42,975 nucleotides of DNA from a virus. The first letter of the stretch is position 1. Each line of letters starts with the position of its first letter. The stretch spans positions 1-42,975 of the IMG/VR virus record IMGVR_UViG_3300006880_000029; one strand, written 5' to 3'. This document shows, piece by piece, positions 2,189 to 24,281 of this stretch. The notes below the pieces were generated by a model. The model worked only from the letters and a program-made list of their open reading frames with translations. It had not been told where the DNA came from and searched no databases. The position numbers and the translations under genes are program-made.

Positions 2189-3376
2189 TCAACGATCGCG
2201 AATGAGCCACTCGCGTTCACCATCGGGTTTTCCGGTTCGCTCACCGAGGTTGCCATCCAGCGCGTTGCGCACCTGCGTGGCTATCCACCTGCCGCACTGG
2301 ACCGTGATACCCTTACCCCACGTCGCCTTCAGACTTCCCATGTGCCGCAGTGGCATGATGTTCCAGTTATCCGGAAATCCCATGACGCGTGCCGCCTCGC
2401 GATGTGTGATCGTGCGCGGTTCGTACGGATGGAGCACCGCGTCGAGAGCGGCACCCGTAATCACGCGTGCCGGCTTCTCTGGATCCCACCTAATAACGGT
2501 CGTGAAGCCCATGTGCCACTCGTTGGCCATGAGCTTGTCCTTCATACCGTTCCACGACGGCGGCAGGTAGCCAAACGTCTCGTAGCAGTGCTTCGCCATC
2601 TGTCCAATGTGCCAACCGGACGGCCAGCCACCGTCACGCTCGGCGAGTGCCATGAGGTCGAGCGCCCGACGAATCGGAACGCCGTCGCGCGACGCGTGGC
2701 CGTCGAACGTCGTGTTGACGCGCACGCCCTCGCGCTCTCCCCACCACGTCGCGGGTCGTCGGTAGGGCTGCTGCTGCCAGGTCAGCGCGTGTCCACGTAG
2801 ATCGTCCCAGATCTCACGCAGAATCGGCTTGCGCACACGCGGATACGTAACGCCGAACGGCACGCGCGACGCGACCCAGAAGTACCGTGGGCGACGAGCG
2901 GCGCCTCCCAGTTCGATCGCGTCCTGGAACACGTGGTACAGCTCGTACTTGAGGCCGGTGAGCTCCTCGAGCTTGGCGCGCAGCGCGGTCATCAACGAGC
3001 GGCCACCTGAGTACGCAAGACGCACAGATTCCATTACCACAATGGTTGGTCGAACGCGCGCCGCGTACTCCATCAGTGCCCACATGCACGCGTTGACCTT
3101 GGCGTCGATTCCTCGATGTCGCTGGTCGGTCATGGCAGAGAAGCCACTACACGGCGGGTTGGCTGCCACGAAGTCAATCTCACGCGGCGCGTGCCACGTG
3201 GTGTAGTCGCAGGCCTGCGACGTCCAGTTCTGGCCCAGTAGGTGTCGATTCACGAGGCAGTTTTTCATGCCGAACCCGCCCTGTTGCTCGACCTTGTGAA
3301 CGAGCTCGAAGCCGGCCTGCACCACTCCGAGGTCAAATCCACCGGCGAAGCTCTGACACGCGATGAATCGATACAC
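2189..3376 (-). CDS. DNA (cytosine-5-)methyltransferase
   Basis: 395 residues. It transfers a methyl group from S-adenosylmethionine to C5 of cytosine in DNA. Motif I is FAGGFDLG (residues 10-17), motif IV is NPPCSGFS with catalytic Cys76, motif VI is the variant VMESVRL (ESV rather than ENV), motif VIII is RRPRYFW, and the C-terminal HREAARVMGFP is the conserved motif IX/X region. The first half of the enzyme is complete and the target-recognition region follows. Start GTG has TAGGA upstream. No restriction endonuclease is adjacent, so it probably protects phage DNA or marks it. It sits downstream of the sugar and nucleotide cassette, which raises the question how it works with the possible modified cytosine proposed for this phage. 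Confidence 0.85.
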   Translation of the reverse strand: MYRFIACQSFAGGFDLGVVQAGFELVHKVEQQGGFGMKNCLVNRHLLGQNWTSQACDYTTWHAPREIDFVAANPPCSGFSAMTDQRHRGIDAKVNACMWALMEYAARVRPTIVVMESVRLAYSGGRSLMTALRAKLEELTGLKYELYHVFQDAIELGGAARRPRYFWVASRVPFGVTYPRVRKPILREIWDDLRGHALTWQQQPYRRPATWWGEREGVRVNTTFDGHASRDGVPIRRALDLMALAERDGGWPSGWHIGQMAKHCYETFGYLPPSWNGMKDKLMANEWHMGFTTVIRWDPEKPARVITGAALDAVLHPYEPRTITHREAARVMGFPDNWNIMPLRHMGSLKATWGKGITVQCGRWIATQVRNALDGNLGERTGKPDGEREWLIRDR

Positions 3377-3578: not shown

Positions 3579-4172
3579 CTAGTACGCCTGACGCTTAACG
3601 GCGCACCACGCGCTGCGAACGATCTCGGTGACGGGTCCCACGGATGCATCAGACGCGCCGACCGAGACTCGCTGATCAACGCAGTCCACACCTGCGTCGT
3701 CGTACGCACGGCCACAACCTGGACACTTGCCGATTCGCGCGTCGTAGCCGTTTGCCTGACGTTTCCGGTTGACTTCCTGCTTATCTCGGTAACGCCGCTC
3801 CCACTCGTCGTCGGTGACGTCGAGTCGTACCAGGATGTTAGCGAGAAAGTGCGCCGCGTCAACCAGTTCACCTACCGCCGCGTCACGATTCACCCACCCA
3901 CGTGGGGTGGACCACGTCTTCCAACCGACCTCGCCTAGAAACTCACTGAGCTCAACGACGAGCGCGGTGTGATTCCAGACGATCGAGTCGGCGAGCGCGT
4001 CCGGATCACGCTTGTACTCATCAAAGTCAACGTGAAACGCCTGCTCTTGGAGCTCCCTGGTTGATCGCAGCCAGCGCCACGATGGATGCGACGCACTGAC
4101 CCTGGACGCCGTGCCTGGACCTCGCGTGGGCTCAACGGCGTCGGAGCGAGGATGCTTACCTCCGGTCGTCAC
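3579..4172 (-). CDS. dUTPase-like all-alpha NTP pyrophosphatase
   Basis: 197 residues from a GTG overlapping the preceding stop by four bases. The family hydrolyses dUTP (or a related nucleotide) to the monophosphate and PPi with Mg2+ held by acidic residues in paired helices. Visible signs of the dimeric dUTPase/MazG-like fold: ALVVELSEFLGEVGWKTW (two Glu and the WK turn), ELVDAAHFLANI (Glu/Asp pair) and the NRKRQANGYD tail. A small CPGC motif and a C-terminal extension follow. It is the last gene of the coupled glycosyltransferase-epimerase string and would keep uracil out of DNA or remove an unwanted pyrimidine triphosphate. Exact substrate uncertain. Confidence 0.7.
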   Translation of the reverse strand: MTTGGKHPRSDAVEPTRGPGTASRVSASHPSWRWLRSTRELQEQAFHVDFDEYKRDPDALADSIVWNHTALVVELSEFLGEVGWKTWSTPRGWVNRDAAVGELVDAAHFLANILVRLDVTDDEWERRYRDKQEVNRKRQANGYDARIGKCPGCGRAYDDAGVDCVDQRVSVGASDASVGPVTEIVRSAWCAVKRQAY

Positions 4173-5173
4173 GGCAACTCACTTCCCTGCGGTGATATTA
4201 GCTTAGCCTGGTCGTAGACCCAGCGGTACGTCCGCTCCAGTCCCACGCTCAGTGGTGTCATCGGTTCCCACTCTAGGTACCGCTTGATCAGCGTGTTGTC
4301 CGAGTTCCGGCCACGCACACCCTGCGGCGCACCGAGGTCGTAGTGCCGTTGCAGGGTGATGCCGGAGTACGTTTCAAGAAGATCAAGAACCTGGTTGATC
4401 GTAACCAGTTCACCGGATCCTACGTTCAAGGGAACACGCACGTCGCTGCGCATTAGGCGTAACGTGCCCTCGACGGCGTCATCAACGTACGTGAACGAGC
4501 GCGTCTGCTCGCCATCACCCCACACCGTAATGTTGTGATCTCCGGTAAGTTCCGCCTCCGCCATCTTTCGACTCAACGCGGCGGGAGCCTTCTCGCGCCC
4601 GCCGATCCAGTCGCCGTTCGGACCGTAGACGTTGTGATAACGCGCCACGCGCGTCTCAACTCCGTAGTCTTCAGTGAAGTGTCGATGCATGCGTTCACCG
4701 AACAACTTCTCCCAGCCGTAACCGTCTTCCGGGTCAGCCGGGTACGCGTCATCCTCACGCAGCGCGACGACGTTCGGATCACGCTGTCGATACACGGGAT
4801 AGATGCACGCGCTGGATGAGTAAAAGACGCGACCCCAGTTGTGCTTGAGTGCCGCGCGAAGTACACCCGTTGTGATGCGAATCGAGAGCATGCAACGTGC
4901 CTTGTGCGTCTCAATGAAGCCGATGCCACCCATGTCAGCCGCCAGGTGATACACCTCATCTACGCTGCCGGCGTACCTGTTGACATCATCGTTGTTGTCG
5001 TCCCAGCACGCGTCCAGCAGCGGCATTGACAGTGCGCCGGAGTGCACCTGATGCCAGTGATCACGAGGCTTCACGTCCACACCCACGACGCGTGTTCCCT
5101 CGTCGAGCAGGCGCTTCACGAGATGTCCACCAATGAAGCCGCCTGCGCCGACCACGATCGCCGTTCTTGTCAC
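4169..5173 (-). CDS. NAD-dependent sugar epimerase, GDP-mannose 3,5-epimerase-like
   Basis: 334 residues; extended short-chain dehydrogenase. The Rossmann NAD motif GAGGFIGGHL is at residues 9-18, the catalytic SSSACIYP at 119-126, and YGWEK (Tyr152, Lys156) is the YxxxK pair. LAADMGGIGFI at about 78-87 is close to the sequence that marks GDP-mannose 3,5-epimerase rather than UDP-glucose 4-epimerase. The family turns GDP-mannose into GDP-L-galactose or GDP-L-gulose. Start GTG overlaps the upstream glycosyltransferase stop (GTGA), so the two are translationally coupled. It probably makes the activated sugar used by the neighbouring transferases. NDP-sugar identity is inferred. Confidence 0.85.
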   Translation of the reverse strand: MTRTAIVVGAGGFIGGHLVKRLLDEGTRVVGVDVKPRDHWHQVHSGALSMPLLDACWDDNNDDVNRYAGSVDEVYHLAADMGGIGFIETHKARCMLSIRITTGVLRAALKHNWGRVFYSSSACIYPVYRQRDPNVVALREDDAYPADPEDGYGWEKLFGERMHRHFTEDYGVETRVARYHNVYGPNGDWIGGREKAPAALSRKMAEAELTGDHNITVWGDGEQTRSFTYVDDAVEGTLRLMRSDVRVPLNVGSGELVTINQVLDLLETYSGITLQRHYDLGAPQGVRGRNSDNTLIKRYLEWEPMTPLSVGLERTYRWVYDQAKLISPQGSELP

Positions 5174-6258
5174 GGTACATCCGTTCGTGCACGTGTGGCA
5201 CGTCGAGTGCTTCCCTCGTTGACCGCAACGCGCACGTCATTCAACCACGCGACGTTTGCCGACCTCGTGTCATACTCTAGGACGTTGTGAAGGTGATCGT
5301 AGACAAACTCGAGTGCATCGATGACCGTCACCTGGGAAGTTCGATCGATAGATACTTCACGTAGTCGTGTCACGAAGTTATCCGTGTTGACGTAGCCGCC
5401 GTACTCGTGTCGAAGATCGGTGACCAGGTTGTGATCGTTGCGATCCTGCACGGCGATCGGTAGACCGTAGCGTACGTGATAGCCAAGCGCGTCCATCACA
5501 CACCGTGCCACGTACGACATCCAGATGTCGTCGTAACGACCCACGCCGACGAGACACTGCATCAGCGGCGCGACGTCCCACGTGTACGCGGTGTTCTGCG
5601 TGTTGAACGGCGCCCACGTACCGCGATCAAGAACGACGCCGTGATCAACGTGAGAGCCGAGCGCAACGTCGGTAACGTGCGGTCGGTTAACGATTCGCTC
5701 GATCGCGTCAATGTCCGGGTCACCGATGCACAGACCAGCCACCACACCGACACGCGCATCGTTGTGCACGTCGTCCGTGTCGCTGATCGTGATATCCTGA
5801 TGCCGCTGGTTGATCGGGAATCCTCGATGTGTCACGGCCGGTTGAAGCAGTTGCCCCGGGTTGTACCAGCCGGTGCTCGTTGACGTCAGGTACTTGATGG
5901 GATCGGTGAGACCTCGGACGAAGTCGAACAGGTAACCACCGTCGAGTGGCACGTTGTCATCGTCGATTGTGACGACGACGTCGGGACCGAGCGTCAGCGC
6001 GTGAAGCAACGCGAGGTTGCGCCGCTGGATCGACCGCGTACCGATGTGATGCGCGCTGGACCAGCGATGCGCCGTCTCGTCGGTGACGCCGATGTACGTG
6101 CCTCCGAGATCCGAAACGAACGCGCGAGTCTCGATCGGTGTCTGCACGTCGCCTGCGACGATGATGTCAAGTTCGTGATCACCGGTGATGCTGCGCGCGT
6201 GTCGAGTCAGAACGTCCGGCACGTTGATCGTGGTGGTGATCAGTGCAATCTTTGTCAT
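5170..6258 (-). CDS. GT-A-type glycosyltransferase
   Basis: 362 residues; ATG overlapping the upstream stop as ATGA. The N-terminus ALITTTINVPDVL begins a nucleotide-binding fold, and VVTIDDDNVP (Asp99-Asp101) is the DxD metal/nucleotide-sugar motif. A HVDHG and a TYTWDVAPL region follow, as in proteins related to STELLO and reversibly glycosylated polypeptides. It would transfer or interconvert a nucleotide sugar. The gene lies between a GT-B-like enzyme and a GDP-sugar epimerase in one coupled string. Acceptor unknown: phage DNA, virion protein and host surface sugar are all possible. Confidence 0.7.
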   Translation of the reverse strand: MTKIALITTTINVPDVLTRHARSITGDHELDIIVAGDVQTPIETRAFVSDLGGTYIGVTDETAHRWSSAHHIGTRSIQRRNLALLHALTLGPDVVVTIDDDNVPLDGGYLFDFVRGLTDPIKYLTSTSTGWYNPGQLLQPAVTHRGFPINQRHQDITISDTDDVHNDARVGVVAGLCIGDPDIDAIERIVNRPHVTDVALGSHVDHGVVLDRGTWAPFNTQNTAYTWDVAPLMQCLVGVGRYDDIWMSYVARCVMDALGYHVRYGLPIAVQDRNDHNLVTDLRHEYGGYVNTDNFVTRLREVSIDRTSQVTVIDALEFVYDHLHNVLEYDTRSANVAWLNDVRVAVNEGSTRRATRARTDVP

Positions 6259-7610
6259 AGACCGAGTCTTCCTTCAATAAGTTGAACATGCAACAACTTC
6301 TCACACGCCTGGTCGTAAAGTGCACGCTGCGCGCGAATCAACCACAACCACGCGTCGCGATTCTCGTTAAGATACTTGACGCGCTTCTCAAGTTCGTTGG
6401 GGTCAGTGACGCGCAACCACCGCGCTAGGTTAGCGAGTTTCTCGTCGGCAACGGCGCCGGACAACGCCTGGCGCAACGTGGGAATGATGTGCCCCTGGGT
6501 GTCGTAGTCCGGATGAAAGAAGCACACCGTGCCCACGGCGAACGCCTGCCAAGGCTTGGTGGTCGCCCAGCCCGATCCTGAACTCGGCGTTGTGAGTGTG
6601 CAACGTACCGAACGCAACTTGTCGTAGTACACCTCAGCCGGCGCGGGTTCGACCGCGTAGCCAACGTTTTCAGGAAGCTCAAGCTGCGCCTTCGACTTGT
6701 CTGACCACTTGCCGTGTACGAACGCCGGACGCAGTGGAACCACGTACTCCATCATGGCGGCGAGACGATTACGCTTGACGTACGCGCGTGCCTCGTTGAT
6801 GAACAGTCCGAAGTGCTCGCGACGTTCCCAGTCGGTGCTGAACCGAGAGTCGATGTGCTCCGGCAGCACACCGCAGATCTCGAGTCCCGAGTACACGTAC
6901 CGCTGGGTGGCGTTCCACACGTGGCCGGTCTCGTCGACCTGCGCGTCAAACCCGCACTCGGCCGGTGTTCGCGGATCACGGTAACGCTCAAACTTCTCAT
7001 TCTTGGTGAACTCGTATTGCGCGAGAATTGGCAGACGCTGCGGCCACTTCAAGTCGCGCGGCTTCGGGTAGTTGCGCGGGTCTGGAACCAGCCAGATTTC
7101 CTCGTAGCGCAACGGATCCCGCTCGCGGAACGCGTTGATACCGCGAAGGATGTACGAGGCGTAGAGGGTGAACGACTTCTGCGGTTGAGTGTAGTCGTTG
7201 TCCTCATACGAGGTTCCGATCTTCGGCAGTGGTGAGTTGGACGTTCCGTGCTGACCGGCCCAGACGATCAGGCCATCAAGCTGTTCGAACAGTGGGCGCG
7301 TGTAATGGTCGTAGACCGCGATCACGTGTTGAAGATCGTCACCTGTGATGCGTTGTGGCTGATCACGTCCGGCCACGTCACGCTTCACAAGTGGCATCAA
7401 CTCGGTCCACGGATTGGTGACGTTCGCCGGCAACCCCACCTCGTGAGGCTGCTCCAGCGAGTTTCGACCTACGATGATCCACTCGTGCTCGGGGTGACGC
7501 GTGGCGAGCGTCTTCAGCAGCAGCGGCGGCTCGTCATCACCGCCCACGACTCCCCACTTCGCCGGACTGAGTGGCATGGCTCGACTGAGCTTGCAGTAAC
7601 CTATCTTCAC
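6255..7610 (-). CDS. Prob. GT-B-type glycosyltransferase
   Basis: 451 residues from GTG at 7610, chosen because TAGGAG lies four bases upstream; a longer frame exists but has no binding site. The N-terminus VKIGYCKLSRAMPLSP looks like the first strand and loop of a Rossmann domain. Near residue 335-375 the order SGSGWATTKPWQAFAVGTVC and FFHPDYDTQG is the kind of C-terminal donor-binding site seen in GT-B enzymes (Lys/Pro-Trp-Gln, 'G-T-V', then acidic residue). The family match is weak elsewhere. First gene of the string 6255-5170-4169-3579, which overlaps codon by codon. It is probably a glycosyltransferase. Confidence 0.5.
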   Translation of the reverse strand: MKIGYCKLSRAMPLSPAKWGVVGGDDEPPLLLKTLATRHPEHEWIIVGRNSLEQPHEVGLPANVTNPWTELMPLVKRDVAGRDQPQRITGDDLQHVIAVYDHYTRPLFEQLDGLIVWAGQHGTSNSPLPKIGTSYEDNDYTQPQKSFTLYASYILRGINAFRERDPLRYEEIWLVPDPRNYPKPRDLKWPQRLPILAQYEFTKNEKFERYRDPRTPAECGFDAQVDETGHVWNATQRYVYSGLEICGVLPEHIDSRFSTDWERREHFGLFINEARAYVKRNRLAAMMEYVVPLRPAFVHGKWSDKSKAQLELPENVGYAVEPAPAEVYYDKLRSVRCTLTTPSSGSGWATTKPWQAFAVGTVCFFHPDYDTQGHIIPTLRQALSGAVADEKLANLARWLRVTDPNELEKRVKYLNENRDAWLWLIRAQRALYDQACEKLLHVQLIEGRLGL

Positions 7611-13568: not shown

Positions 13569-13594
13569 CGAGGTAACACTACGAGGCAGCGCCG

Positions 13595-14068: not shown

Positions 14069-14451
14069 AGCGCAACCGTGGCGGTCATGACCGGGAGCGA
14101 CGCAAAACCGTGTTGGTAGTAGATCTCGAGACCGCTGAGCGCCGCCACCTCGAACTTCGCACGTGCGCCGACGCTGCGCTCCCAGTTACGCAGGAGGTAG
14201 ATGCCGTCGCACGTTAGCAGCTCACGCAGGTCACCACGAATGAAGCACGCCGTGCTGTCGTGCTGCGGGTAATCACTGGCGAACGGCTTGGCGTACCCAC
14301 GGGGACACGCATCCTCGTGCTCATGTGGAGGGCAGTCGTGCGGAACGATCGCCTCGTGGCCGGCGCTTTCCACGTAGCGTGCGGCCGCACGAAACGCGCT
14401 GAGGTTGCCGTTCTGGTAGCCGTTGATCGGGCCACTGACGTAGATCTTCAC
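14065..14451 (-). CDS. DUF4406 / nucleoside deoxyribosyltransferase-like protein
   Basis: 128 residues. IYVSGPINGYQNGN at the start and LLTCDGIYLLRNWERSVGARAKFEVAAL near the end are the two signature regions of DUF4406, a family with the nucleoside 2-deoxyribosyltransferase fold. The loop between them is rich in His and Cys. Start GTG overlaps the polymerase stop. It may act on a nucleoside or nucleotide and could help make or clear modified bases; this part is inference. Confidence 0.7.
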   Translation of the reverse strand: MKIYVSGPINGYQNGNLSAFRAAARYVESAGHEAIVPHDCPPHEHEDACPRGYAKPFASDYPQHDSTACFIRGDLRELLTCDGIYLLRNWERSVGARAKFEVAALSGLEIYYQHGFASLPVMTATVAL

Positions 14452-17255
14452 GCTGACTCCTTCAGTTCAACCCACTCTTTAACGCTACCCCACCGCTGGC
14501 CGATCTCAACCGACGTCGTCACGGGTACGCGCAGCAGTTCATCATCATTCATGATGTCGTTGAGCGCCGCCACGACGTCGCTGAGTTCCTCATTGGGAAC
14601 GTCGAGGTCCAGCTCGTCGTGTACCGGCAGCGTCATGTACGGATCGAGACCGGCCTGGTCGCACTCGACGAGCTTCATCTTAAGAATCTCACCGGCCGTT
14701 CCCTGGATCAGGTAGTTCACCAGCGTGTACAGCCGTCCGGCGTCAGCGACGTGGCGACGACCGGTCAACGGCGACCGAACGTACGCCTCACCCTCGGCGT
14801 CGAGTCGAGAGAGACCGAGCTTCTCGACGTGCCTGATCCAGGTCGGAACACCCGGGTACAGCGCGTCGAAGCGTCGCATGAAGTCGGCGGCCTCCTGAAT
14901 CGGAGCGCCGGCGGTCTTGGCGAATTTGTCGATCCCGGCCCCGTAGATTTTCGCGTACCCTGAGTTACCTGTGATTAATGGCGTACGTCCCTGTCGCATG
15001 GTCCATGTACCGAGTTCGGTGGTAACGCACCACACGGGTTGCCGCGCGGTAGGTGTTGCTGTGGTTCGCTGGCCGGTCATTGTCGGTAGCTGGTAGTTAA
15101 TGACGTCAACTGCGTTGCGCTGCCAACCTCGACCGTTCGGCTGTCGAACATAGACACGCGAGAAATGTCCAGTTAGATAGCCAAGTGCAATGATGAGTTC
15201 AGAAACAGAAGATTGATGCGCTTGTGTAATGGAAACGTACCTGTACTTAGCGTGTCCGCCGTCACCGGCGTTTAGCGTTTCAATCATGGCGCGTCGCGCA
15301 CTCGGTGCTAGCGCAAGCGCTACCTGCCACGGGTCAAATGTGCGCTTGTCATGAATGCCAATGCGTTCAAGAACGGATCGTGCCCACGTTGGGTCAATCA
15401 GCCACGAAACGCCGATCTTATCATTGCGATGCGACTCGTAACGTCGATGAGGTATGTCAGCTAGCAGAGTATCGATCTCGGTAACACGGTGCTTCTTCAC
15501 TTGCCCGATGTTCATAGAGCAAGCGACCTTCGCACCGCCTGCCTGCGACGTCTTACCGGTAAATTTTCCGCGCGTAATCGAACCATCGCTGAGTACCCAT
15601 CCAAGAACGGCGGCTTCCTGATCGGTCACGTTGGCGGTGCCCTCGACGCACTCAGCCGCGAGGATCGCTCGGTAACCGGATCCCGAAAGTTCAGCGGTTG
15701 TTAAGAACTTAAGGTTATGAGTCTTCTCGTGCTCGGTGATCCAACGATGACCGTGTGTCGTCTCAAACGATCGATCACGATTGCCGAATCGCACGACGTC
15801 GGCGTCATCGTAGTGGTGAACAGCCGTTACTCGGGTCCAACGTGTTCGACGAGTGGCGAGATCGTATCCGAGTGTTTGATCACCGACCGCGATCTCGTCG
15901 TGCTTCAGCCAACCTCGCTGCGTAAGAATTTCGGTGTCGAGTGGAACACAGTTCTTAACGAACTGCCGGCGCGGGTCGGACTTCTGGAAGTTGGGATCGT
16001 TGAACAGGTCACGTGCCATGTTCACGAAGAAGTCACCCTCGCTCATGAACGCCTTGATCATACCCTGTTCACTCGTGAGGTGCGCTAATAATCTCATTTC
16101 GATCTGATCGAAATCCGCCTTCACCCACGTGTGGCCTTCGTTCGCGATGAAGCAGTTCCGAACCTTCTTACCCTCCTTGGTGCGCACCGGCACGTTCTGC
16201 AGGTTCGGGTTGTTCATCGACATGCGACCGGTGCGGACGCCGCTGGAGCCACCGGACTCGAAGGCGTTCTTGTTGGTGCCGCCCACGGTGTTGATCGACG
16301 GATGAATGCGCTCGTCGATCTCGGTCAACTCCAGGAAGTGATCGAGGTACGTCGACACGAGCTTGACGGCCTGGCGACGACCGAGCGTCGCCTGCGCCAG
16401 TGGATGCGCGAGCTCGGCGAGTACCTCCTTGTCGAGTGACCAGCCGGTCTTCGTGCGCTTGTAGAGGTCGACGCCGTCGTCGATCAGCGCCTGCGCGACG
16501 GCTCGGTTTGAACCGGGGTAGACGTTGTAGTGCTCCTGGCACCAGGTCTCGACGTCGGTCGAGTACTGAATGAGACTATCCCTGAACCTCGTCGTGTACG
16601 CGCGATCAACCCGGACGCCGTTGCGCTGCATCTTCGCCGCGACCCACGCGGTGGCCATCTCGAGGTCGTACGATCGGGGAGCCTCGGCCTGCACGCGTGG
16701 CCACAGATGATTCTTAACGCGGCTCGTGAGAATGGTGTCGATTCCCGCGTAGAACCAGTAGGGCTCGAAGTCGTACGGAATGGTGGCCCACGTCCAGCCG
16801 CCACGCTTCGAGAGCACGTCGTGAAGCTGCTCCTGGCCCAGAACGGCGTGAGGCCCAACGATCTTCTTGGCCGCGCTCTTCAACGCCAGTGAACCGGTCG
16901 ACTCCAGAACGTGCAGCATGAACCGCGTGTCGCGCACACGATGAATGGGAATGTTGACGTCGTGATTGGCGCACATGCCCACGTCGTACGGGGCGTTGTG
17001 CATGTCGTACCAGCCCTCGTACCGCCGCACGACGTCGTGTACGAGACCGGACCAGCGCTCGAACGGTATCACCCAGGCGCGCGTCTCGTCGCCGAACTGG
17101 ACCAGGCGCACGCGATCTCGCTGGAGATCGAGGCCGGTGGTCTCGGTGTCGAACGCGACCTCGGACTTGGTGGACAGCCAGCGGGTGAACTCCCAGGCCT
17201 CGTCGATCGAGTCGATGAGTGTGACCTGGACGTCGTCCAGGCTCATCTGGTGCAC
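14448..17255 (-). CDS. polA: DNA polymerase I family, with intein
   Basis: 935 residues encoded; 606 after removal of a 329-residue intein. The 3'-5' exonuclease has FDTET (Asp36, Glu38), NAPYD (87-91) and YAGID (169-173). The polymerase has RTGRMSMNNPNLQN, motif A VKADFDQIEMR (Asp381) and motif C PVHDELD (879-881). There is no 5' nuclease domain. The O-helix is split by the intein between N435 and S765; spliced it reads RRQFVKN+SGYAKIYG. Tyr767 stands at the place of E. coli Phe762, as in T7 polymerase. GTG at 17255 is given; ATG at 17246 is equally possible. Replicative polymerase of the phage. Confidence 0.9.
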   Translation of the reverse strand: MHQMSLDDVQVTLIDSIDEAWEFTRWLSTKSEVAFDTETTGLDLQRDRVRLVQFGDETRAWVIPFERWSGLVHDVVRRYEGWYDMHNAPYDVGMCANHDVNIPIHRVRDTRFMLHVLESTGSLALKSAAKKIVGPHAVLGQEQLHDVLSKRGGWTWATIPYDFEPYWFYAGIDTILTSRVKNHLWPRVQAEAPRSYDLEMATAWVAAKMQRNGVRVDRAYTTRFRDSLIQYSTDVETWCQEHYNVYPGSNRAVAQALIDDGVDLYKRTKTGWSLDKEVLAELAHPLAQATLGRRQAVKLVSTYLDHFLELTEIDERIHPSINTVGGTNKNAFESGGSSGVRTGRMSMNNPNLQNVPVRTKEGKKVRNCFIANEGHTWVKADFDQIEMRLLAHLTSEQGMIKAFMSEGDFFVNMARDLFNDPNFQKSDPRRQFVKNCVPLDTEILTQRGWLKHDEIAVGDQTLGYDLATRRTRWTRVTAVHHYDDADVVRFGNRDRSFETTHGHRWITEHEKTHNLKFLTTAELSGSGYRAILAAECVEGTANVTDQEAAVLGWVLSDGSITRGKFTGKTSQAGGAKVACSMNIGQVKKHRVTEIDTLLADIPHRRYESHRNDKIGVSWLIDPTWARSVLERIGIHDKRTFDPWQVALALAPSARRAMIETLNAGDGGHAKYRYVSITQAHQSSVSELIIALGYLTGHFSRVYVRQPNGRGWQRNAVDVINYQLPTMTGQRTTATPTARQPVWCVTTELGTWTMRQGRTPLITGNSGYAKIYGAGIDKFAKTAGAPIQEAADFMRRFDALYPGVPTWIRHVEKLGLSRLDAEGEAYVRSPLTGRRHVADAGRLYTLVNYLIQGTAGEILKMKLVECDQAGLDPYMTLPVHDELDLDVPNEELSDVVAALNDIMNDDELLRVPVTTSVEIGQRWGSVKEWVELKESA
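14964..15950 (-). mobile_element. Intein in DNA polymerase with LAGLIDADG endonuclease
   Basis: 329 residues starting at Cys436 (CVPLDTEILTQRGW, block A) and ending at Asn764 with Ser765 as +1 residue. Block B is FETTHGHRW; block F/G is QPVWCVTTELGTWTM and PLITGN. The penultimate residue is Gly, not the common His. The middle carries VLGWVLSDGSI and MIETLNAGDGG, the paired helices of a LAGLIDADG homing endonuclease, so the element looks able to spread. It interrupts the O-helix, the most conserved dNTP-binding segment. Confidence 0.9.
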
Positions 17256-17361
17256 TTCGCGGAAGGGAAAGGTGATCGCTGCATTGATGCAACGTAGCGA
17301 ACGACCGTCCCTTGATAGAGACCTAGGCGGCCAACTTACCCGCGCCTACGTTCGCGCTACG

Positions 17362-17832
17362 TCACAGGTTGCTGACGATCTCGTCAGCTTCAAGATCAAT
17401 GAATGACACCGGCACGTGCGCCTGGCGCAGCAGTGTGACGCCGTCAGCGAGACGGTACTCTCGCGCCGCGATGACCTCAAAGATGCCGGCGTTGATGATC
17501 AGTTGCGCGCACGCAAGGCACGGCGCGGTCGTCACGTACATCACGGCCTGATCGAGGGCGACACCGGATCGCGCGGCGAACGCCACGGCGTTGGCCTCAG
17601 CGTGCACCGAGAGTGGACAGCCGGTGCGCCGATTCGAGTCGTCGGTCTCGGATCGGTCACCCTCGTCGTGAACGCAGTGCGTCATGCCACGCGGCACGCC
17701 GTTGTAGCCAGACGAGAGAATGCGGCCCTCGCGCGCGATGATGGCACCGTTGTGCTGACGCGAGCACGTACTGCGCTCGGCCATCTCAAACGCGATGCGC
17801 GTGAGCGTCGTGTGAATGGACGGTCGCGTCAT
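17362..17832 (-). CDS. dCMP deaminase
   Basis: 156 residues from ATG at 17832, which overlaps the stop of the TS homologue (TGATG); a GTG lies one codon upstream. The zinc site is complete: SVHAEANA (His, catalytic Glu) and TAPCLACAQL (two Cys). NGVPRGMTHC and the long C-insert before HAE are typical of deoxycytidylate deaminases rather than cytidine deaminases. It converts dCMP to dUMP for dTTP synthesis. Its partner upstream seems to act on dCMP too, so the two would compete for or balance one pool. Confidence 0.85.
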   Translation of the reverse strand: MTRPSIHTTLTRIAFEMAERSTCSRQHNGAIIAREGRILSSGYNGVPRGMTHCVHDEGDRSETDDSNRRTGCPLSVHAEANAVAFAARSGVALDQAVMYVTTAPCLACAQLIINAGIFEVIAAREYRLADGVTLLRQAHVPVSFIDLEADEIVSNL

Positions 17833-18719
17833 CACAATCCCGTTGTTTGTCCGATCTTACCGAGCTGCGTGACGTACCACCGATTGCTCGCGCGCTCGGC
17901 GTCGTTTGCGGACGTGGTCGGTTCCGGCTCGGCGTCGTCCAGGAGGTAGCTCGCGACCTCAAACCCCGACTCGTCACCGGGTGAGACGACGCCGAGTGGT
18001 AGGTCGTTGTCGGGTTCACGCGCGTCGGCATCGTGCTGTGTGATGACGCGTCGTGCCAGTTCCACGTTGCTCTCGTAGAGGTGCAAGCTCGTCACGTTGT
18101 GCACGTAGCGGCCAGCGGGAAGTCTCAGTTCACGCGCCATCGTGTGCTGGAGCTGCGAGAACGTGAACACGTCGTACGGCACACCGAGCCACACGTCCTG
18201 ACTACGCATGTACGCGTACAGCTCGAGCGTTCGCTCGTCGTTCTCGTTCGCACGAATCATAAACTGCAGGAACACCGTGCAGGGCTTGTCGCCTCGATGC
18301 TCGAGATCTTCCGGACGCCAGACGGACGCGACGGCTTGACGGGTCTCAGGATCATCCCTCAGCAGTTCCAAACAGTCGCCAATCGCGTACGCCAGTCGCG
18401 GACCGTACGCGCCGTAGTCGAGGTCTGAGGGATCAACTAGTACGTTCGTAAACGTTGGCGCCGCGCGTCGAATCAGATCCGAACGCGACTCGCCGGCGAT
18501 GACTTGAAGCGCCTCCACGGCGGCGAGCTTGAGGTTGACTCCACGGCCCACGCCGATCGGCAGCATCGGCGCCAGTGGATCCACGAACTCGAGCTGCGCT
18601 CCGGTTACCTCGCGCGCGTCGAGACCACGTGATCGCATAGGTTGTCCCACCGCCAGCACCAGATCGAGCAGCGTCACGTAGCTTCGCCGCATGTCGGCGC
18701 AGCGCAGATGAAGTGGCAT
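17832..18719 (-). CDS. Thymidylate synthase homologue, dCMP-hydroxymethylase-like
   Basis: 295 residues from ATG at 18719 (overlapping TAATG with the kinase stop). TS landmarks: YGAYG (102-106), DKPC with the catalytic Cys147, MRSQDVWLGVPYD (RS at 172-173), and YVHNVTSLHLY (His/Tyr of the dNMP site). In TS the residue after G-x-P-[FY] is Asn, which reads the uracil ring; here it is Asp183, as in T4 dCMP hydroxymethylase. The double-Arg SRR is changed to TRQ. It therefore probably adds a one-carbon group to dCMP, giving 5-hydroxymethyl (or another modified) dCMP. Normal TS activity is less likely. Confidence 0.7.
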   Translation of the reverse strand: MPLHLRCADMRRSYVTLLDLVLAVGQPMRSRGLDAREVTGAQLEFVDPLAPMLPIGVGRGVNLKLAAVEALQVIAGESRSDLIRRAAPTFTNVLVDPSDLDYGAYGPRLAYAIGDCLELLRDDPETRQAVASVWRPEDLEHRGDKPCTVFLQFMIRANENDERTLELYAYMRSQDVWLGVPYDVFTFSQLQHTMARELRLPAGRYVHNVTSLHLYESNVELARRVITQHDADAREPDNDLPLGVVSPGDESGFEVASYLLDDAEPEPTTSANDAERASNRWYVTQLGKIGQTTGL

Positions 18720-19651
18720 TAAGACAACTCCCAGGGACGAACGCCCAGAATCGCGTCGCGGTACGGCTCGATCGAGTGGTGCTTGAAGCGCCGCACCCAC
18801 TGTGGGTGCGGAACGACGCGATCAGCCCACTGCACCGCGGCGCGCGCGTTGCGACCGAGCGCCACCGTCGTGGGTCGTCCGAGACTGTTCCACAACGCGT
18901 CAACGTCATCGACGTCGCACGCGTTGGCGACGCCGATGTTCACGCGTGCCGCGTCACCGAGCGTGGAAAAGAGGTAGTAACCCGACGTGGCGTGATACGG
19001 CATGAACGCCGGTCGCGGATCATCGGGATCGGCACCCGTGGCGCGGACGTCACCTAGCAGAAGAAGTTGTGGCCACGTCGGACCCACGTACGTCACAAAC
19101 TTGGTGAACTTCTGCGTGTGACGCGCGGCGTTCTCGGCCTCGTTGATCACCGCAGTAACGGTATCGCGCGTGGTGAGATGCTCAACGTCGAGGTCGATCC
19201 GGTGAAGTGACGTGCGCGCTGCGGCGTCGAGGTAGCCGCTGTGAATCGCATCCACGTGCTCAGCCGTGACGAGTTCATCACCGCGCTCGCGTACGCACGC
19301 GCGAATCTGATCGGGGTTTCCGGTGATCGTCACCATAAGCGCACCGCGCGCGACCAGCAGCAGCTCGATGTGGCGCAGCACCGCCTCGGTCATGACCGAC
19401 TCGCGTCCCAGAACGGCGGGGTACACGACCTCGCCGAGGTGCCATCGGTCGCACACGATGTGATGATCGTTGATCGAGGATCGGTAGTCCAGCAGCGGAA
19501 CCTCGTACTCATCGAGCGGGTGCGCCGCCGGCGGTCCTCGGTGAAGCAGTTCGATCTTGGCGTTCATGTAGTGCTGACTGAGGTAGCGCACCAGCGCCTG
19601 CGCGAGCGTCGACTTCCCCACGCAGTCTGGCCCCTCGATGATGATCAGCAC
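18719..19651 (-). CDS. dNMP kinase-like P-loop domain fused to UDG-like domain
   Basis: 310 residues. Residues 1-~180 are a thymidylate-kinase-type NMP kinase: EGPDCVGKST (7-15), HRGPP, and DRWHLGEVVYP in the LID/substrate region. Residues ~185-310 read VGPTWPQLLLLGDVRATGAD, ATSGYYLFSTL, VNIGVANACD, TVALGRNARAAVQ and HPQWVRRF, in the order of uracil-DNA-glycosylase-superfamily motifs, though the catalytic residues are not clear. A kinase for modified dCMP would fit with the gene downstream. The second domain might be a base-processing or lyase-type enzyme. The kinase half is sure; the second is a weak structural guess. Confidence 0.6.
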   Translation of the reverse strand: MLIIIEGPDCVGKSTLAQALVRYLSQHYMNAKIELLHRGPPAAHPLDEYEVPLLDYRSSINDHHIVCDRWHLGEVVYPAVLGRESVMTEAVLRHIELLLVARGALMVTITGNPDQIRACVRERGDELVTAEHVDAIHSGYLDAAARTSLHRIDLDVEHLTTRDTVTAVINEAENAARHTQKFTKFVTYVGPTWPQLLLLGDVRATGADPDDPRPAFMPYHATSGYYLFSTLGDAARVNIGVANACDVDDVDALWNSLGRPTTVALGRNARAAVQWADRVVPHPQWVRRFKHHSIEPYRDAILGVRPWELS

Positions 19652-19752
19652 GACGCGACGCTACCTCTCGACGTTGACGTGACGGCGTTTCGAGACACCG
19701 CAAGGTTTGGCGCACGGTCGGGGACCACGCCGTATCTCGAACTCTTGGTCAT
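19645..19752 (-). CDS. Possible small protein, 35 residues
   Basis: ATG at 19752 follows the purine-rich GAGGGGGAGAG, a strong if rather close ribosome-binding site. The frame ends with a TGA that overlaps the start of the kinase gene, as in most gene pairs here. The peptide (starting MTKSSRYGVVPDRAPN) is polar, Ser- and Arg-rich and has no known motif. The spacing and the overlap are the only support. Confidence 0.4.
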   Translation of the reverse strand: MTKSSRYGVVPDRAPNLAVSRNAVTSTSRGSVASC

Positions 19753-19777
19753 CTCTCCCCCTCGCGAAACCGTCACC

Positions 19778-20041
19778 TTATCGCTCGTTCTTCGTGTCGT
19801 CCACGATCGCGGTTGGGTCGTGGTTTACGCCGAAGATGATGTCATTCATCTCAAGAATGCGATCACCGAGTTCGTGAAGCTGCGTGCCGAGCACGTACAC
19901 AGCTCGCGACGTGTCCCTGACCTGGCCGCCAGGAACCATGGTGTCAGCCACCGCATCGAGTGCGCGTGCCGCGTCGCGCCACGTGCGTTGAATGACGGCG
20001 ATTCGTTCGTCACGATGACGTCGCGCGGCATTCTCGTTCAC
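19778..20041 (-). CDS. Small hypothetical protein
   Basis: 87 residues, GTG start inside the end of the TROVE gene. Almost entirely helical, with an Arg/Ala-rich first half (ARRHRDERIAVIQRTWRDAARAL) and an acidic second half. Coupled to the Ro60 gene by overlap, so it is probably made with it. No known family. Confidence 0.55.
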   Translation of the reverse strand: MNENAARRHRDERIAVIQRTWRDAARALDAVADTMVPGGQVRDTSRAVYVLGTQLHELGDRILEMNDIIFGVNHDPTAIVDDTKNER

Positions 20042-21711
20042 ACGTCACCGGCCACGAAGTCGCTGAGCATGTTCGGCGTCGCCGAGTCGAAGCCGACCAC
20101 GTCGAGCGTGCGCGCGTCGGTGACGTCGCCGATCCTCGACCGCGTCGCGGTCATACCCACGACGCCGAGCGCTGCTGGAATACCCATCGACTGACGGTAG
20201 CGCGTCAGCGCCTCGTGCGGGTGAATCGTACCGGCCCACGTCTCGTTGTCGGTGTAGATGAAGAACGCGTCAAACTCGGCGCGACTCTGGAGCGCGCTCG
20301 TCATCGGCAGCGCGCAGTCCGTGCCGCCCCAGGACACGCCGCGCATGACGCGCAGCACGTCGTCGAGCCGCTGTCGTGGCGAGATGTTCAACGTGATGAT
20401 GCCGCGACGTCGAGGATCGCCACCGAAACCGAGACCCGATCCGGACGCCGAGGCGAACGCCACAACCTCGTACTCCGTCTCGACGTTGGCCGTCACGAGC
20501 GCCAGCGCGGCCGACGCCTCCATGCAGGTGATCGGCAGACTCGACACCTTCGTGTTCATCGACGGTGAGACGTCCAGCGCGAGACGCAGCCGCTGGCCGG
20601 TCGATCGCACGGCGCCGAACGCCGCGTAGAACGCGGTATCGAGCGCGTCCACGATCCGGCGCGACGGGATCCAGCGCGTCTCGCCACGCTCGCTGTGGCC
20701 CTGCGCGTACGTGCGCTGTGCCACGAGGACGTTGATCGGGTGTACGCGTCCGTTACGCAGCCGCTCGGCGTCAGTGAGCTGGTGCACGACCTCGTTGGTC
20801 CAACCGCCGGTCGCCGGCAGTAGTCCCAAGTTGGTGAGACGCGGAAGCTGCCGCAGCAGCGCGGTCTGCGGCAGACCACCCTCGAGGAACGCCTCCCACA
20901 CCGCGACCTGGTTCAGCGCCTGCGTCGGCAGTGCCTCCCACGGCAGGCCGTACGTCTTGACACAGTCGACCCAGTGACGCGCACCGCCGGCGCCCTGCGC
21001 GCGCACGAAGCCCTCGACGACGCGCAGCTCATCGTAACCGCTCGTCATTGCCAGCTCGTCCTGAGCAGTCACCTTGGCGTGATGACAGATCCAGTCAAAG
21101 AGCGCTCGTCGAACCAGGTCGTCCGCGGCGGCCTTGGGCTTCGCCAGGCGCAGCAGGTCACGGTGCGTCCAACCCTCGCGCTGCCGGTACTTCACGACCT
21201 GGTAAGCGAGACGACCGACCGGCTGCTTGAGGTACCAGTTCTCGATCGCTCGGTCGAGCACCCGACCGCGTCCACGGAACTGCTTCACGTAGGCATTGAA
21301 CTGCATGAGATGCGTGCCGGTGCGCGCCACCTGCGGCAGCGCCTCGGCCGCCGCGCGTCGCGTATCCACGTCGCCGTGAGCGATGGCGATGGCCAGCGCG
21401 AACAGGGCCGGCTGGTTGCGCGGCGCGCGCCCACCCTGCGAGATCGCGACGATCTCGGTCACGAGTGCGTGGCCGTCGGTTCGCGCCAGCTCCAGCACGA
21501 CCTGGGCGTTGTCCTTGGCCAGGTCGGGAGCGGTCGCGTAGTACGTGCCACCGTCGACACCGAGCGTCAGGAAGCGCCGCAGCCGCTGAAGTGGAGTCAC
21601 CTCGAACGTGAAACCACCCGCCGCGTTGCGCGTTTGCCGTGGATCGGCCGCCTCGGACTGCGGCGTCACGCGCGTCTGCACGGCGCGCAGTGGATCCGTG
21701 AATCCCTTCAT
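20038..21711 (-). CDS. rsr: Ro60/TROVE-domain RNA-binding protein (Rsr)
   Basis: 557 residues; ATG with a GAAGGAG-GTAGGA purine region upstream. The N-terminus DPRQTRNAAGGFTFEVTPLQRLRRFL is the classic TROVE start; the HEAT-repeat ring follows (TYYAT...; ALPQVARTGTHLMQFNAYV; LKQPVGRLAYQVVKYRQREG). The C-terminal von Willebrand A domain has DVSPSM (MIDAS), GGTDCALPM and FIYTDNET. Ro60 binds Y RNAs and misfolded small RNAs, and in bacteria it directs PNPase or takes part in stress and rRNA processing. A phage copy directly downstream of tRNA-like RNAs that resemble Y RNAs is the key context. Confidence 0.9.
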   Translation of the reverse strand: MKGFTDPLRAVQTRVTPQSEAADPRQTRNAAGGFTFEVTPLQRLRRFLTLGVDGGTYYATAPDLAKDNAQVVLELARTDGHALVTEIVAISQGGRAPRNQPALFALAIAIAHGDVDTRRAAAEALPQVARTGTHLMQFNAYVKQFRGRGRVLDRAIENWYLKQPVGRLAYQVVKYRQREGWTHRDLLRLAKPKAAADDLVRRALFDWICHHAKVTAQDELAMTSGYDELRVVEGFVRAQGAGGARHWVDCVKTYGLPWEALPTQALNQVAVWEAFLEGGLPQTALLRQLPRLTNLGLLPATGGWTNEVVHQLTDAERLRNGRVHPINVLVAQRTYAQGHSERGETRWIPSRRIVDALDTAFYAAFGAVRSTGQRLRLALDVSPSMNTKVSSLPITCMEASAALALVTANVETEYEVVAFASASGSGLGFGGDPRRRGIITLNISPRQRLDDVLRVMRGVSWGGTDCALPMTSALQSRAEFDAFFIYTDNETWAGTIHPHEALTRYRQSMGIPAALGVVGMTATRSRIGDVTDARTLDVVGFDSATPNMLSDFVAGDV

Positions 21712-21828
21712 TCCTACATCTCCTTCGTTCCGAAACGTGGGCCGCGAACGTGGTATGTGCCGATCGGGTATGTGTTTTCACCAATTGAAAGATAACCGAC
21801 CAACGAGCAGTTCGCGACCCACGTCGTG

Positions 21829-21986
21829 AGCCTTACGATGAGCGTGTGTCCGTCGTCGAATCAAGCGGCGCGCTAACCAACTGCGCCATCACCCGAAGCG
21901 AATTGCACCCCGCCGGGCGAGTAGGACTCGAACCTACGACCTCCGCCAACCAAAGATAATCGATCGACTTCAGCTCATCTTTAGCT
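21829..21986 (-). ncRNA. Permuted tRNA-like RNA, Pro(UGG)-like
   Basis: Order on the minus strand: leader with GATGAGC (21979-21973), loop TTTGGTT with UGG at 21952-21950, T arm GTAGG-TTCGAGT-CCTAC, 3' acceptor TCGCCCG (21920-21914), 18-base linker, 5' acceptor CGGGTGA (21895-21889), D arm GCGC...GCGC, CCGCT, trailer GCTCATC (21843-21837). Acceptor strands pair 7/7 (one G-U). CCGCT pairs with GGCGG across the break to form the anticodon stem. Leader and trailer pair in a 7-bp helix. The D arm and C1-G72 are typical of tRNA-Pro. Confidence 0.75.
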
Positions 21987-21996
21987 GTGAACACTG

Positions 21997-22116
21997 GGTG
22001 CGTGAACGTGTGAACGCAACTCGGAGTGCCACCCCGCGTGTGGCGTCCGTCGCCGGTTGAGGCGCTGGACAGGAATCGAACCTGCGATAACCGAGTCATC
22101 TTCAGTTCACGACACC
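21997..22116 (-). ncRNA. Permuted tRNA-like RNA lacking an anticodon arm (YrlA-like)
   Basis: Leader GGTG-T-CGTGAAC (22116-22105) pairs with trailer GTTCACG-CACC (22007-21997), 11 bp with one bulged base. Inside, CTCGG pairs with CCGAG. T arm GCAGG-TTCGATT-CCTGT and CCAGCGCC are followed by TCAACC and GGCGACGG; this acceptor-like helix has two mismatches. The D arm is GCCA...TGGC. There is no room for an anticodon arm, so this unit looks more like a Y-RNA tRNA mimic than a tRNA. Confidence 0.6.
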
Positions 22117-22146
22117 TCGTGCTTCCCCTGCCTAGGGAATCTTACC

Positions 22147-22293
22147 GAGTGATCCGCTGAGCGTGCAAGTGCTTTCGGCGTTTAGGCGCTCTCGGCCGCT
22201 GAGCTACGAGCCTCGGAAGGCTCGGTGGGATTTGAACCCACGTCTCTCCATTTGCAGTGGATAACCGATCGCGGTCAGCTCCACGGATCACTC
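22147..22293 (-). ncRNA. Permuted tRNA-like RNA, Cys(GCA)-like
   Basis: Leader (from 22293) and trailer (to 22147) form a helix of about 16 bp with one G-U and one mismatch, incl. GAGTGATCC/GGATCACTC. Next come TCGG/CCGA, an anticodon hairpin CCA-CTGCAAA-TGG (GCA at 22255-22253), T arm GTGGG-TTCAAAT-CCCAC, 3' acceptor CGAGCCT (22224-22218), tetraloop TCCG, 5' acceptor AGGCTCG (22213-22207) and D arm GCTC...GAGC. Acceptor strands pair 7/7. The linker is a UNCG-type tetraloop, which suggests a stable capped stem. Confidence 0.8.
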
Positions 22294-22307
22294 TTAAGTT
22301 GTTACGC

Positions 22308-22452
22308 GTAAGACGCTGAGCGTGTGAGTGCTTTCGGGTTTTAGCGCTCTGCCAGTTGAGCTACGGGCCCAGGTGGTGGACCCGACAGGACTCGAACCTG
22401 CAACCTCTCCATTAGAAGTGGATAACCGATCGCGTTCAGCTCAGCTTCTCAC
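22308..22452 (-). ncRNA. Permuted tRNA-like RNA, Arg(UCU)-like
   Basis: Leader GTGAGAAGCTGAGC (22452-22439) pairs with trailer GCTCAGCGTCTTAC (22321-22308), 13 of 14 including a G-U. Then TCGG/CCGA, anticodon hairpin TCCA-CTTCTAA-TGGA (UCU at 22416-22414), T arm GCAGG-TTCGAGT-CCTGT, 3' acceptor CGGGTCC with ACCA encoded after it, 5' acceptor GGGCCCG (22370-22364) and D arm GCTC...GAGC. Acceptor strands pair 7/7 (one G-U). An encoded CCA inside the linker hints at a tRNA origin. Confidence 0.8.
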
Positions 22453-22624
22453 TCTTCAGTTGTGGCGACGAACGTGGTACGTGCGACGTCCGTCGGACTT
22501 CAGGTGCTCCCCTCCGGGAAGTTCCTAAAGATAAACGTCGTACATCAGTTCGCCGTTGTCGTTGTCGTCGCCAACGCTACGACGTCACCGCGCTGCGGCG
22601 ACGTCCGATGACGTCGATCTGACG

Positions 22625-22699
22625 CATCCTCCCAGGGATTCGAACCCCGAACCTTCACGTTCGTAGCGTGACGCTCTGTCCTGGTTGAGCTAGGAGGAT
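22625..22699 (-). tRNA. tRNA-Arg(ACG)
   Basis: Ordinary cloverleaf order, 75 bases without CCA. Acceptor ATCCTCC/GGAGGAT (7/7), D stem GCTC/GAGC, anticodon arm TCACG-CTACGAA-CGTGA, T arm CGGGG-TTCGAAT-CCCTG, discriminator G. It is not permuted and lies between permuted units, so both kinds are mixed in one cluster. Confidence 0.9.
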
Positions 22700-22703
22700 C
22701 AGC

Positions 22704-22734
22704 GGGAACCGGCGCTTAACCTGCGCCGGCTCCC
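22704..22734 (-). terminator. Strong GC-rich hairpin
   Basis: GGGAGCCGGCGC and GCGCCGGTTCCC form a 12-bp stem (one G-U) with a 7-base loop between a permuted unit and tRNA-Arg(ACG). No T tract follows, so it may be a processing or spacer element rather than a terminator. Confidence 0.45.
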
Positions 22735-22789
22735 CTAATAGGAGTGTTTGCATCTTGCGAGGATGCACATGTTTCCTCATCGTGATCCA

Positions 22790-23109
22790 GGTCGCGTGCA
22801 CCTTTAAGGATACCACCGAGCTTGAGGTAAGCGTTGTGCCTTGCCTTTAGGCCACACCGGCGTGGTAGCGGAGACCGGATTCGAACCGGTGACCTTCGGA
22901 TTATGAGCCCGACGCGCTGCCGAACTGCGCTACTCCGCGTTGGTGGGAGCCGAGCACCCGGATGGTATGCTCGGTTCCCGAGGTTCCTAACTCGTGATAA
23001 CCCACGCCAGTAGGCAACCAGAGTCGAGGGTGAAGGAACCCGTGCCGGTGGCTGGACTTGAACCAGCATCTCAACGTTCTAGGTGGTGTATCCCGTAGAT
23101 CACACGACC
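22790..23109 (-). ncRNA. Permuted tRNA-like RNA with a tRNA-Met inside its linker
   Basis: Leader GGTCGTGTG (23109-23101) pairs 9/9 with trailer CACGCGACC (22798-22790); GGATAC and CACC pair with GTATCC and GGTG further in. T arm GCTGG-TTCAAGT-CCAGC; 3' acceptor CACCGGC (23050-23044) pairs 7/7 with GCCGGTG (22861-22855), about 180 bases away. CGTTG (3' part) pairs with CAACG (22836-22832) as an anticodon stem. The anticodon itself cannot be called. The linker holds the complete tRNA-Met(CAT), ending one base before the 5' acceptor. Confidence 0.65.
22863..22939 (-). tRNA. tRNA-Met(CAT)
   Basis: 77 bases including encoded CCA. Acceptor GCGGAG/CTCCGC pairs from position 2; position 1-72 is C and T, an unpaired end. 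Anticodon arm TCGGG-CTCATAA-TCCGA, T arm ACCGG-TTCGAAT-CCGGT, D stem GCGC/GCGC. The open 1-72 pair is a feature of initiator tRNA, but three G-C pairs in the anticodon stem are missing, so I call it Met without stating elongator or initiator. Confidence 0.85.
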
Positions 23110-23128
23110 GCACGGTCTGGTTGAGCCT

Positions 23129-23335
23129 GTAGCGGATCAACGTAACCGTGATTCCGTCTGGTCTTGCCTCTGCCGATTGGGCTACCTCGACGTCGCGAGG
23201 AGGAAGGACCAACTTCCTCCCCGCTGGCCACAGCAACCAACGTCACGGTGTGACGTCGTGCCGAGGGTAGGACTCGAACCTACACCGGAGATCAGACGTA
23301 TGAACTTGTCAAGGATCAACTTCAGCTTGCGCTAC
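23129..23335 (-). ncRNA. Permuted tRNA-like RNA, first of the cluster
   Basis: The leader carries GCTGAAGTTGATC, nearly identical to that of the Pro-like unit. T arm GTAGG-TTCGAGT-CCTAC; 3' acceptor CCTCGGC (23266-23260) pairs 7/7 (one G-U) with GTCGAGG (23191-23185) after a ~70-base linker that forms two hairpins. The D arm GCC...GGC follows. CGTCTG (23298-23293) pairs with CAGACG (23160-23155), and GTAGCG with CGCTAC at the outside. No clear anticodon arm is seen; a CAT could lie in the loop. Confidence 0.6.
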
Positions 23336-23386
23336 GTTACGTAGTCTAGTCGATCACGTCGCTGGTGAGTGACGCTAGGCGGCGCG

Positions 23387-24225: not shown

Positions 24226-24281
24226 CGTCGTTCACCTCCGTGAAGTTGTGACGAGTGGTCCCAGCGTAGCGCCAGCCGACG

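Follow-up and report, generated by a model that had tools for sequence, protein, structure and literature searches.

Introduction

What does a phage do with a thymidylate synthase (TS) homologue that carries an aspartate where TS has an asparagine? This question is raised by the virus record IMGVR_UViG_3300006880_000029 of IMG/VR. The whole record, 42,975 bases with 63% GC (guanine plus cytosine), was analyzed and is called the window here. Its bases 10,000–25,000 had no close DNA-level relative among 50,697 phage records. The original prediction concerned positions 17832–19651, which hold two minus-strand genes, those of the TS homologue and a kinase, and it held that the phage makes a C5-modified deoxycytidine monophosphate (dCMP), phosphorylates it, and incorporates it. 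Our analysis suggested that the phage makes 5-hydroxymethyl-dCMP, which would be phosphorylated, incorporated, and then glycosylated, probably with L-galactofuranose. We judge this whole course to be moderately likely. Gene identities, residues, the fold match, and gene linkage were computed directly; all reactions are drawn from sequence, fold, and synteny.

A candidate dCMP hydroxymethylase

17832..18719, minus strand: TS-superfamily dCMP hydroxymethylase candidate, 295 amino acids, ATG start; PF00303, E = 1.5e-24; Cys147, Thr148, Asp144, Asp175, Asp183

The TS homologue was aligned residue by residue with E. coli TS, T4 gp42, SPO1 gp29, RB69 ORF048c, and MilA. The catalytic cysteine and the Asn-to-Asp change named in the original prediction were both found. 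Cys147 aligns with Cys146 of E. coli TS, Cys148 of T4 gp42, and the MilA cysteine, and Asp183 aligns with E. coli Asn177, T4 Asp179, and the MilA aspartate. A threonine stands where E. coli TS has His147, an aspartate lies three residues ahead of the catalytic cysteine like T4 Asp145, and Ser173 and Arg127 are found where MilA has Ala176 and Lys133. The folate-site residues Asp169, Gly173, and Tyr209 (E. coli numbering) are all present. The TS-type C-terminal tail is absent, as in T4 dCMP hydroxymethylase.

These positions have been studied in other enzymes. Aspartate at the E. coli 177 position marks cytosine enzymes, and the choice of ribose or deoxyribose is set by Ala176/Lys133 versus Ser/Arg (PMC5175136). 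In the T4 enzyme, N3 is protonated by Asp179; Asp145 is next to a water positioned for hydroxymethylation, and there is no TS-type tail at the C-terminus (PMC6400193). Positions 177 and 147 were the top two separating the TS of modified-cytosine from those of unmodified environmental DNA (PMC8670742). The deoxyuridine monophosphate (dUMP) hydroxymethylase of SPO1 retains Asn at the 177 column. RB69 ORF048c, presumably the 5-hydroxy-dCMP synthase described for Mosigviruses, has lost the folate-site residues (Asp169 to Asn, Gly173 to Val, and Tyr209 to Phe). As the window protein kept all three, folate-dependent hydroxymethylation is favored for it.

A single-sequence scan of viral contigs with the TS homologue gave no relatives, so relatives were reached via the glycosyltransferase and mutase described below. 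From contigs carrying the linked glycosyltransferase, 41 homologues of the TS protein were drawn. All 41 kept the cysteine, the threonine at the E. coli His147 column, and the aspartate at the E. coli 177 column, indicating that the Cys/Asp pattern is not due to chance. The Asp at the T4 Asp145 column, the Ser at the MilA Ala176 column, and the folate-site Asp169 and Tyr209 were also present in 41/41, and the catalytic residues Cys147 and Glu69 were invariant.

MilA, the CMP hydroxymethylase of mildiomycin biosynthesis, was the best PDB match (E = 2.5e-22), ahead of all TS. It has the same Asp, Thr, and Cys; a difference is that its Ala176/Lys133 go with ribose (CMP), whereas the Ser/Arg of the window protein go with deoxyribose. 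T4 gp42 shares the Cys, Thr, Asp145, Asp179, Ser, and Arg pattern and the missing tail, and T4 likewise has glycosyltransferase and dCTPase genes. However, MilA was the closer overall match in the PDB search, and the C-terminal part of the window protein is longer than that of gp42 and different from it. The window protein reached none of the NCBIfam cut-offs for TS equivalogs (the best score was 74 bits against 327; TIGR03284, 71.5 against 108).

The active-site residues thus argue against an ordinary TS, a MilA-type ribonucleotide enzyme, a dUMP hydroxymethylase of the SPO1 kind, and an RB69-type 5-hydroxy-dCMP synthase. Hydroxymethyl, cytosine, and deoxyribose are each supported by discriminating residues. 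The favored prediction is that the protein hydroxymethylates dCMP with methylene-tetrahydrofolate; the T4 Asp145 column and the missing tail agree with it.

Kinase, deaminase, and polymerase genes

18719..19651, minus strand: (hydroxymethyl-)dCMP kinase candidate, 310 amino acids; PHROG 761 "thymidylate kinase", E = 4.5e-16; P-loop domain (residues 1–183) and C-terminal domain (residues ~186–310)
17362..17835, minus strand: dCMP deaminase; PF00383, E = 2.6e-21; PHROG 174, E = 9e-45; zinc motif His-Ala-Glu ... Cys-x-x-Cys
14448..17255, minus strand: family A DNA polymerase (PF00476 and 3'-5' exonuclease), split by an in-frame insertion (residues ~435–760)

On the minus strand, the order is kinase, TS homologue, deaminase, and polymerase. 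The kinase and deaminase genes overlap the two ends of the TS-homologue gene, and the dCMP deaminase was, as predicted, its direct neighbor. The zinc ligands of the deaminase are invariant among homologues.

The AlphaFold 2 (AF2) model of the kinase had a mean pLDDT (predicted local distance difference test) of 85.5 and showed a domain like that of thymidylate kinases. Its closest fold was YorR of B. subtilis phage SPbeta (3kb2, Z = 18.1), in a VIA fold list covering residues 1–183. The predicted fusion to another domain was confirmed: the C-terminal domain (18722–19099, minus strand) is kept in 10 of 11 aligned relatives. As one relative lacks it, the pathway does not depend on it. Its segments YVGP...LLLGD...TSG...NACD...LGR...HPQ...RRF are kept in most relatives and absent in some, and no match was found in Pfam or PDB sequences. 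Its four-strand alpha/beta pattern and HPQ/RRF motif are reminiscent of uracil-DNA glycosylases.

The polymerase insertion begins with NCVPLDTEIL and ends at ITGN/SGYAK. The polymerases of relatives are without it and match the two outer parts only. It looks like an intein.

A glycosyltransferase with a modeled fold like that of T4 beta-glucosyltransferase

6255..7607, minus strand: GT-B glycosyltransferase, candidate DNA hydroxymethylcytosine glycosyltransferase, 450 amino acids; GTG start behind the ribosome site AGGAG
5170..6258, minus strand: GT75-family nucleoside diphosphate (NDP)-pyranose mutase, MtdL-like; PDB match MtdL, E = 1.8e-30
4169..5173, minus strand: GDP-mannose 3,5-epimerase; PDB match 8sg0, E = 1.5e-85 (next family, E = 1e-25)
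3579..4172, minus strand: all-alpha nucleoside triphosphate pyrophosphatase (dUTPase_2), candidate dCTPase/dUTPase of the T4 gp56 kind; PF08761, E = 9.9e-12
2189..3376, minus strand: C5-cytosine DNA methyltransferase homologue; PF00145, E = 7.8e-22

Sugar and glycosyltransferase genes lie 10–14 kb downstream of the TS homologue on the same strand; the original prediction did not mention them. The glycosyltransferase, mutase, and epimerase genes touch each other and are followed by the pyrophosphatase gene.

The glycosyltransferase had no Pfam, PHROG, or PDB sequence match. Its AF2 model (pLDDT 83) was compared with all PDB chains by Foldseek, and T4 DNA beta-glucosyltransferase (BGT) came first (E = 4e-9, six top rows). 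BGT was also first in VIA-align 2, with Z = 21.9 and a root-mean-square deviation of 4.0 over 316 residues; the next family had Z = 18.8, and T4 DNA alpha-glucosyltransferase was in the same list (Z = 16.9). By profile, the match to BGT was weak (E = 0.002, probability 12%). The donor-site segment in the C-terminal half aligns with that of BGT. Differences are that the window protein is ~14% identical in the structural alignment, is ~100 residues longer, and has Gln at BGT Glu272; the BGT donor is UDP-glucose, whereas a GDP-furanose is expected here. Two peptide patterns of the glycosyltransferase did not occur in 84,980 cellular species genomes. Finding a modeled fold like that of a DNA hydroxymethylcytosine glycosyltransferase beside a candidate dCMP hydroxymethylase is a pointed coincidence, although a shared fold alone does not show function.

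For the mutase, the first Pfam name was plant RGP (UDP-arabinose mutase). This name was set aside, as MtdL fits far better (E = 1.8e-30 against 0.07 for plant UDP-arabinopyranose mutase in the PDB search). MtdL is the GDP-L-galactose mutase of A201A biosynthesis and also takes GDP-L-fucose (PMC9937993). The window protein keeps DDD (Asp99–101), Arg145, Asp182, Gln221, Arg241, and Asp244, and we propose that it converts GDP-L-galactopyranose to GDP-L-galactofuranose. The product of 4169..5173 keeps the segments SSACIYP, EKL, GGREKAPAA, and RGRNSDN, and there is little doubt from these matches that it is a GDP-mannose 3,5-epimerase. The same enzyme pair, with the GT75 fold family, DDD, and catalytic Arg and Asp, occurs in A201A biosynthesis; in the window, the pair is located in a phage replication operon.

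T4 gp56 matches the same Pfam family as the pyrophosphatase (E = 2e-5). In the C5-methyltransferase homologue, Pro-Pro-Cys76 and Glu116 are conserved in 19 sequences, and ESV is found in place of ENV.

Operon order and cassette exchange in relatives

The glycosyltransferase is encoded at 68 viral loci. The operon order is kinase, TS, deaminase, polymerase, RuvC, SNF2, exonuclease, Sak4, SSB, glycosyltransferase, sugar cassette, dUTPase_2, and C5 methyltransferase. The same order was found in about 60 metagenomic phages, with a variable sugar cassette; the C5-methyltransferase homologue is nearly always present as the last gene of the modification operon. Among the 40 glycosyltransferase contigs that were 23 kb or longer, 39 carried TS, and the exception starts at the polymerase gene.

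Cassettes were compared at 66 loci. The mutase occurred with the GDP-mannose epimerase at six (plus the window), with another epimerase-family protein at 18, and alone at 14. Homologues of RB69 arabinose genes were found at eight loci and a separate kinase/nucleotidyltransferase pair at 10; one locus had no cassette and nine were truncated. RB69 ORF053c, ORF052c, and ORF055c match the arabinose-type cassette genes (E = 1.5e-8, 3e-9, and 6e-16, respectively). On the glycosyltransferase tree, the cassette changed 10 times, compared with 32.4 in shuffles, indicating that the transferase and its donor type are inherited together, although the latter can be exchanged.

Actinomycetia phage DSL-LC01 has the same kinase-TS-deaminase-polymerase order. 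In the same place, it carries a different glycosyltransferase and a UDP-galactopyranose mutase of the flavin type (PF03275, E = 5e-30), a cassette that by its gene content would be a different route to a furanose donor.

The isolated, unannotated Pseudoalteromonas phage vB_Psh_XG4 has a backbone unlike that of the window relatives. It encodes an orthologue of T4 gp42 that is 50% identical (E = 1e-70) and retains the active-site residues. Located 2.2 kb from it is a homologue of the window glycosyltransferase (23%, E = 4e-19), which shows a weak similarity of its own to T4 BGT (E = 0.002). The cluster also has an RB69-type nucleotidyltransferase-kinase, a looser C5-methyltransferase homologue, and a dUTPase_2-like protein, all within 8 kb (100–7552). 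This stretch is predicted to be a compact hydroxymethylcytosine-glycosylation cluster, and XG4 would be a practical test organism.

Proposed pathway

In the proposed pathway, glycosylated 5-hydroxymethylcytosine would take the place of cytosine in the phage DNA. The dUTPase_2 protein would hydrolyze dCTP and dUTP to dCMP and dUMP. The TS homologue would take a one-carbon unit from methylene-tetrahydrofolate and attach it to C5 of dCMP, and quenching by water would give 5-hydroxymethyl-dCMP. The phage kinase and then host NDP kinase would produce hydroxymethyl-dCTP, which the phage polymerase would incorporate. We are highly confident of these four steps. Starting from host GDP-mannose, the epimerase would form GDP-L-galactose, or possibly L-gulose, and ring contraction by the GT75 mutase would then give GDP-L-galactofuranose. 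The BGT-like glycosyltransferase would then move the sugar to the hydroxymethyl group in DNA, which may shield the DNA from nucleases. The predicted C5-modified dCMP, phosphorylated and incorporated, is supported by the sequence, which also specifies its nature further; the prediction was incomplete in that later glycosylation by the linked genes, which is very probable, had not been connected with it.

We hold DNA glycosylation with good confidence, and a furanose is the likely sugar. For L-galactofuranose specifically, the chances are about even. The sugar identity is the weakest step, as the epimerase can also give L-gulose and host GDP-fucose could feed the mutase. The fullest statement is tentative: the phage DNA may contain 5-(L-galactofuranosyloxymethyl)cytosine or a close L-hexofuranose, and the transferase may define a new phage-restricted family of DNA glycosyltransferases, with an exchangeable cassette determining the donor.

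Several points weigh against this pathway. The relatives share a phage backbone, so most of the co-occurrence is not independent, and XG4 is the main independent case. Two residues important in MtdL, Asp87 and the metal-binding His287, are replaced in the mutase by Ile77 and Gln271. The C5-methyltransferase homologue is odd: its catalytic Cys is kept, yet fully substituted DNA offers no substrate. The arabinose cassette alone is no proof of a hydroxymethyl group, as Mosigvirus arabinose is attached to 5-hydroxycytosine, not hydroxymethylcytosine (PMC13390438). Synechococcus phage S-T4 has a GDP-mannose 3,5-epimerase and a GT75 mutase together, with several glycosyltransferases and heptose genes. 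The S-T4 cluster looks polysaccharide-like and unrelated to DNA, so the epimerase and mutase alone do not prove a DNA target.

Alternative explanations

The S-T4 cluster would fit an explanation in which hydroxymethylcytosine is made and incorporated but receives no sugar in the DNA, with the epimerase, mutase, and glycosyltransferase serving instead to decorate virion proteins or the host surface. We consider this unlikely. In about 60 genomes, these genes lie inside the replication operon, between recombination and dCTPase-family genes. In addition, the glycosyltransferase fold is most like that of T4 BGT, and a homologue lies beside the gp42 orthologue in XG4.

In a second explanation, the product of the TS homologue would be 5-hydroxy-dCMP, as has been inferred for phages of the RB69 type, and the sugar would sit directly on the C5 hydroxyl. 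It draws on the Mosigvirus linkage and on the RB69-type arabinose cassettes adjoining the same glycosyltransferase family in eight relatives. The retained folate-site residues, lost in RB69 ORF048c, make it improbable. RB69 and other Mosigviruses share with the pathway proposed for the window a modified dCMP, a phage-made sugar nucleotide, and a DNA glycosyltransferase, and their nucleotidyltransferase-kinase and isomerase have homologues in the eight operon relatives. They differ in the 5-hydroxy base and the sugar cassette, and RB69 ORF003c had no significant match to the window glycosyltransferase.

The protein could also methylate dCMP and give 5-methylcytosine DNA like that of XP12, since Asn to Asp alone converts TS to a dCMP methylase according to literature as cited in PMC8670742. 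This is very improbable: Thr in place of His147, the Asp at the T4 Asp145 column, and the missing TS tail are as in hydroxymethylases, and the linked DNA-glycosyltransferase-like protein would be left without a hydroxyl acceptor. Ordinary nucleotide metabolism by a divergent TS acting on dUMP, which the database names suggest, is hardly credible, given the NCBIfam scores, the Asp177 and Thr147 in 41/41 homologues, and the Asn of the SPO1 dUMP enzyme.

Relation to known DNA modifications

T4 coats its DNA with glucose against bacterial defences. Glycosylated cytosine in phage DNA is already known, and to our knowledge only a small number of sugars have been described on it (glucose, gentiobiose, arabinose, and, in phage Thanatos, a pentose). 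Among the open-access papers searched, a set without most subscription journals, neither a GT75 mutase nor a GDP-mannose 3,5-epimerase was reported in DNA modification, this transferase family did not appear, and no paper linked galactofuranose to hydroxymethylcytosine in phage DNA. The preferred hydroxymethylation and glycosylation pathway also has features of the 5-carbamoyloxymethylcytosine phages found by MetaGPA, in which a TS with Asp177, a dCMP deaminase, and an all-alpha pyrophosphohydrolase co-occur (PMC8670742); the second step there is a carbamoyltransferase, whereas the window has a glycosyltransferase.

In dozens of uncultured phages, a single glycosyltransferase family is combined, at the same position in the genome, with at least four different cassettes for making the donor. 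The cassette variety predicts a range of DNA sugars, including L-hexose furanoses, and the genes are ready to express. Sugars of this kind bear on how phages evade restriction and CRISPR and on defences that sense modified DNA, and they are of use as tools that tag hydroxymethylcytosine.

Other genes in the window

At 22217–22370 (minus strand), Rfam placed a tRNA that extends over 154 bases, a length that would fit an insertion or intron, and that was missed by ARAGORN. A Ro60/Rsr TROVE RNA-binding protein (20038–21711, minus strand) is encoded beside tRNA genes. The window also encodes an RlaP RNA-repair nucleotidyltransferase (29600–30439, minus strand). Together, the two proteins suggest phage RNA quality control.

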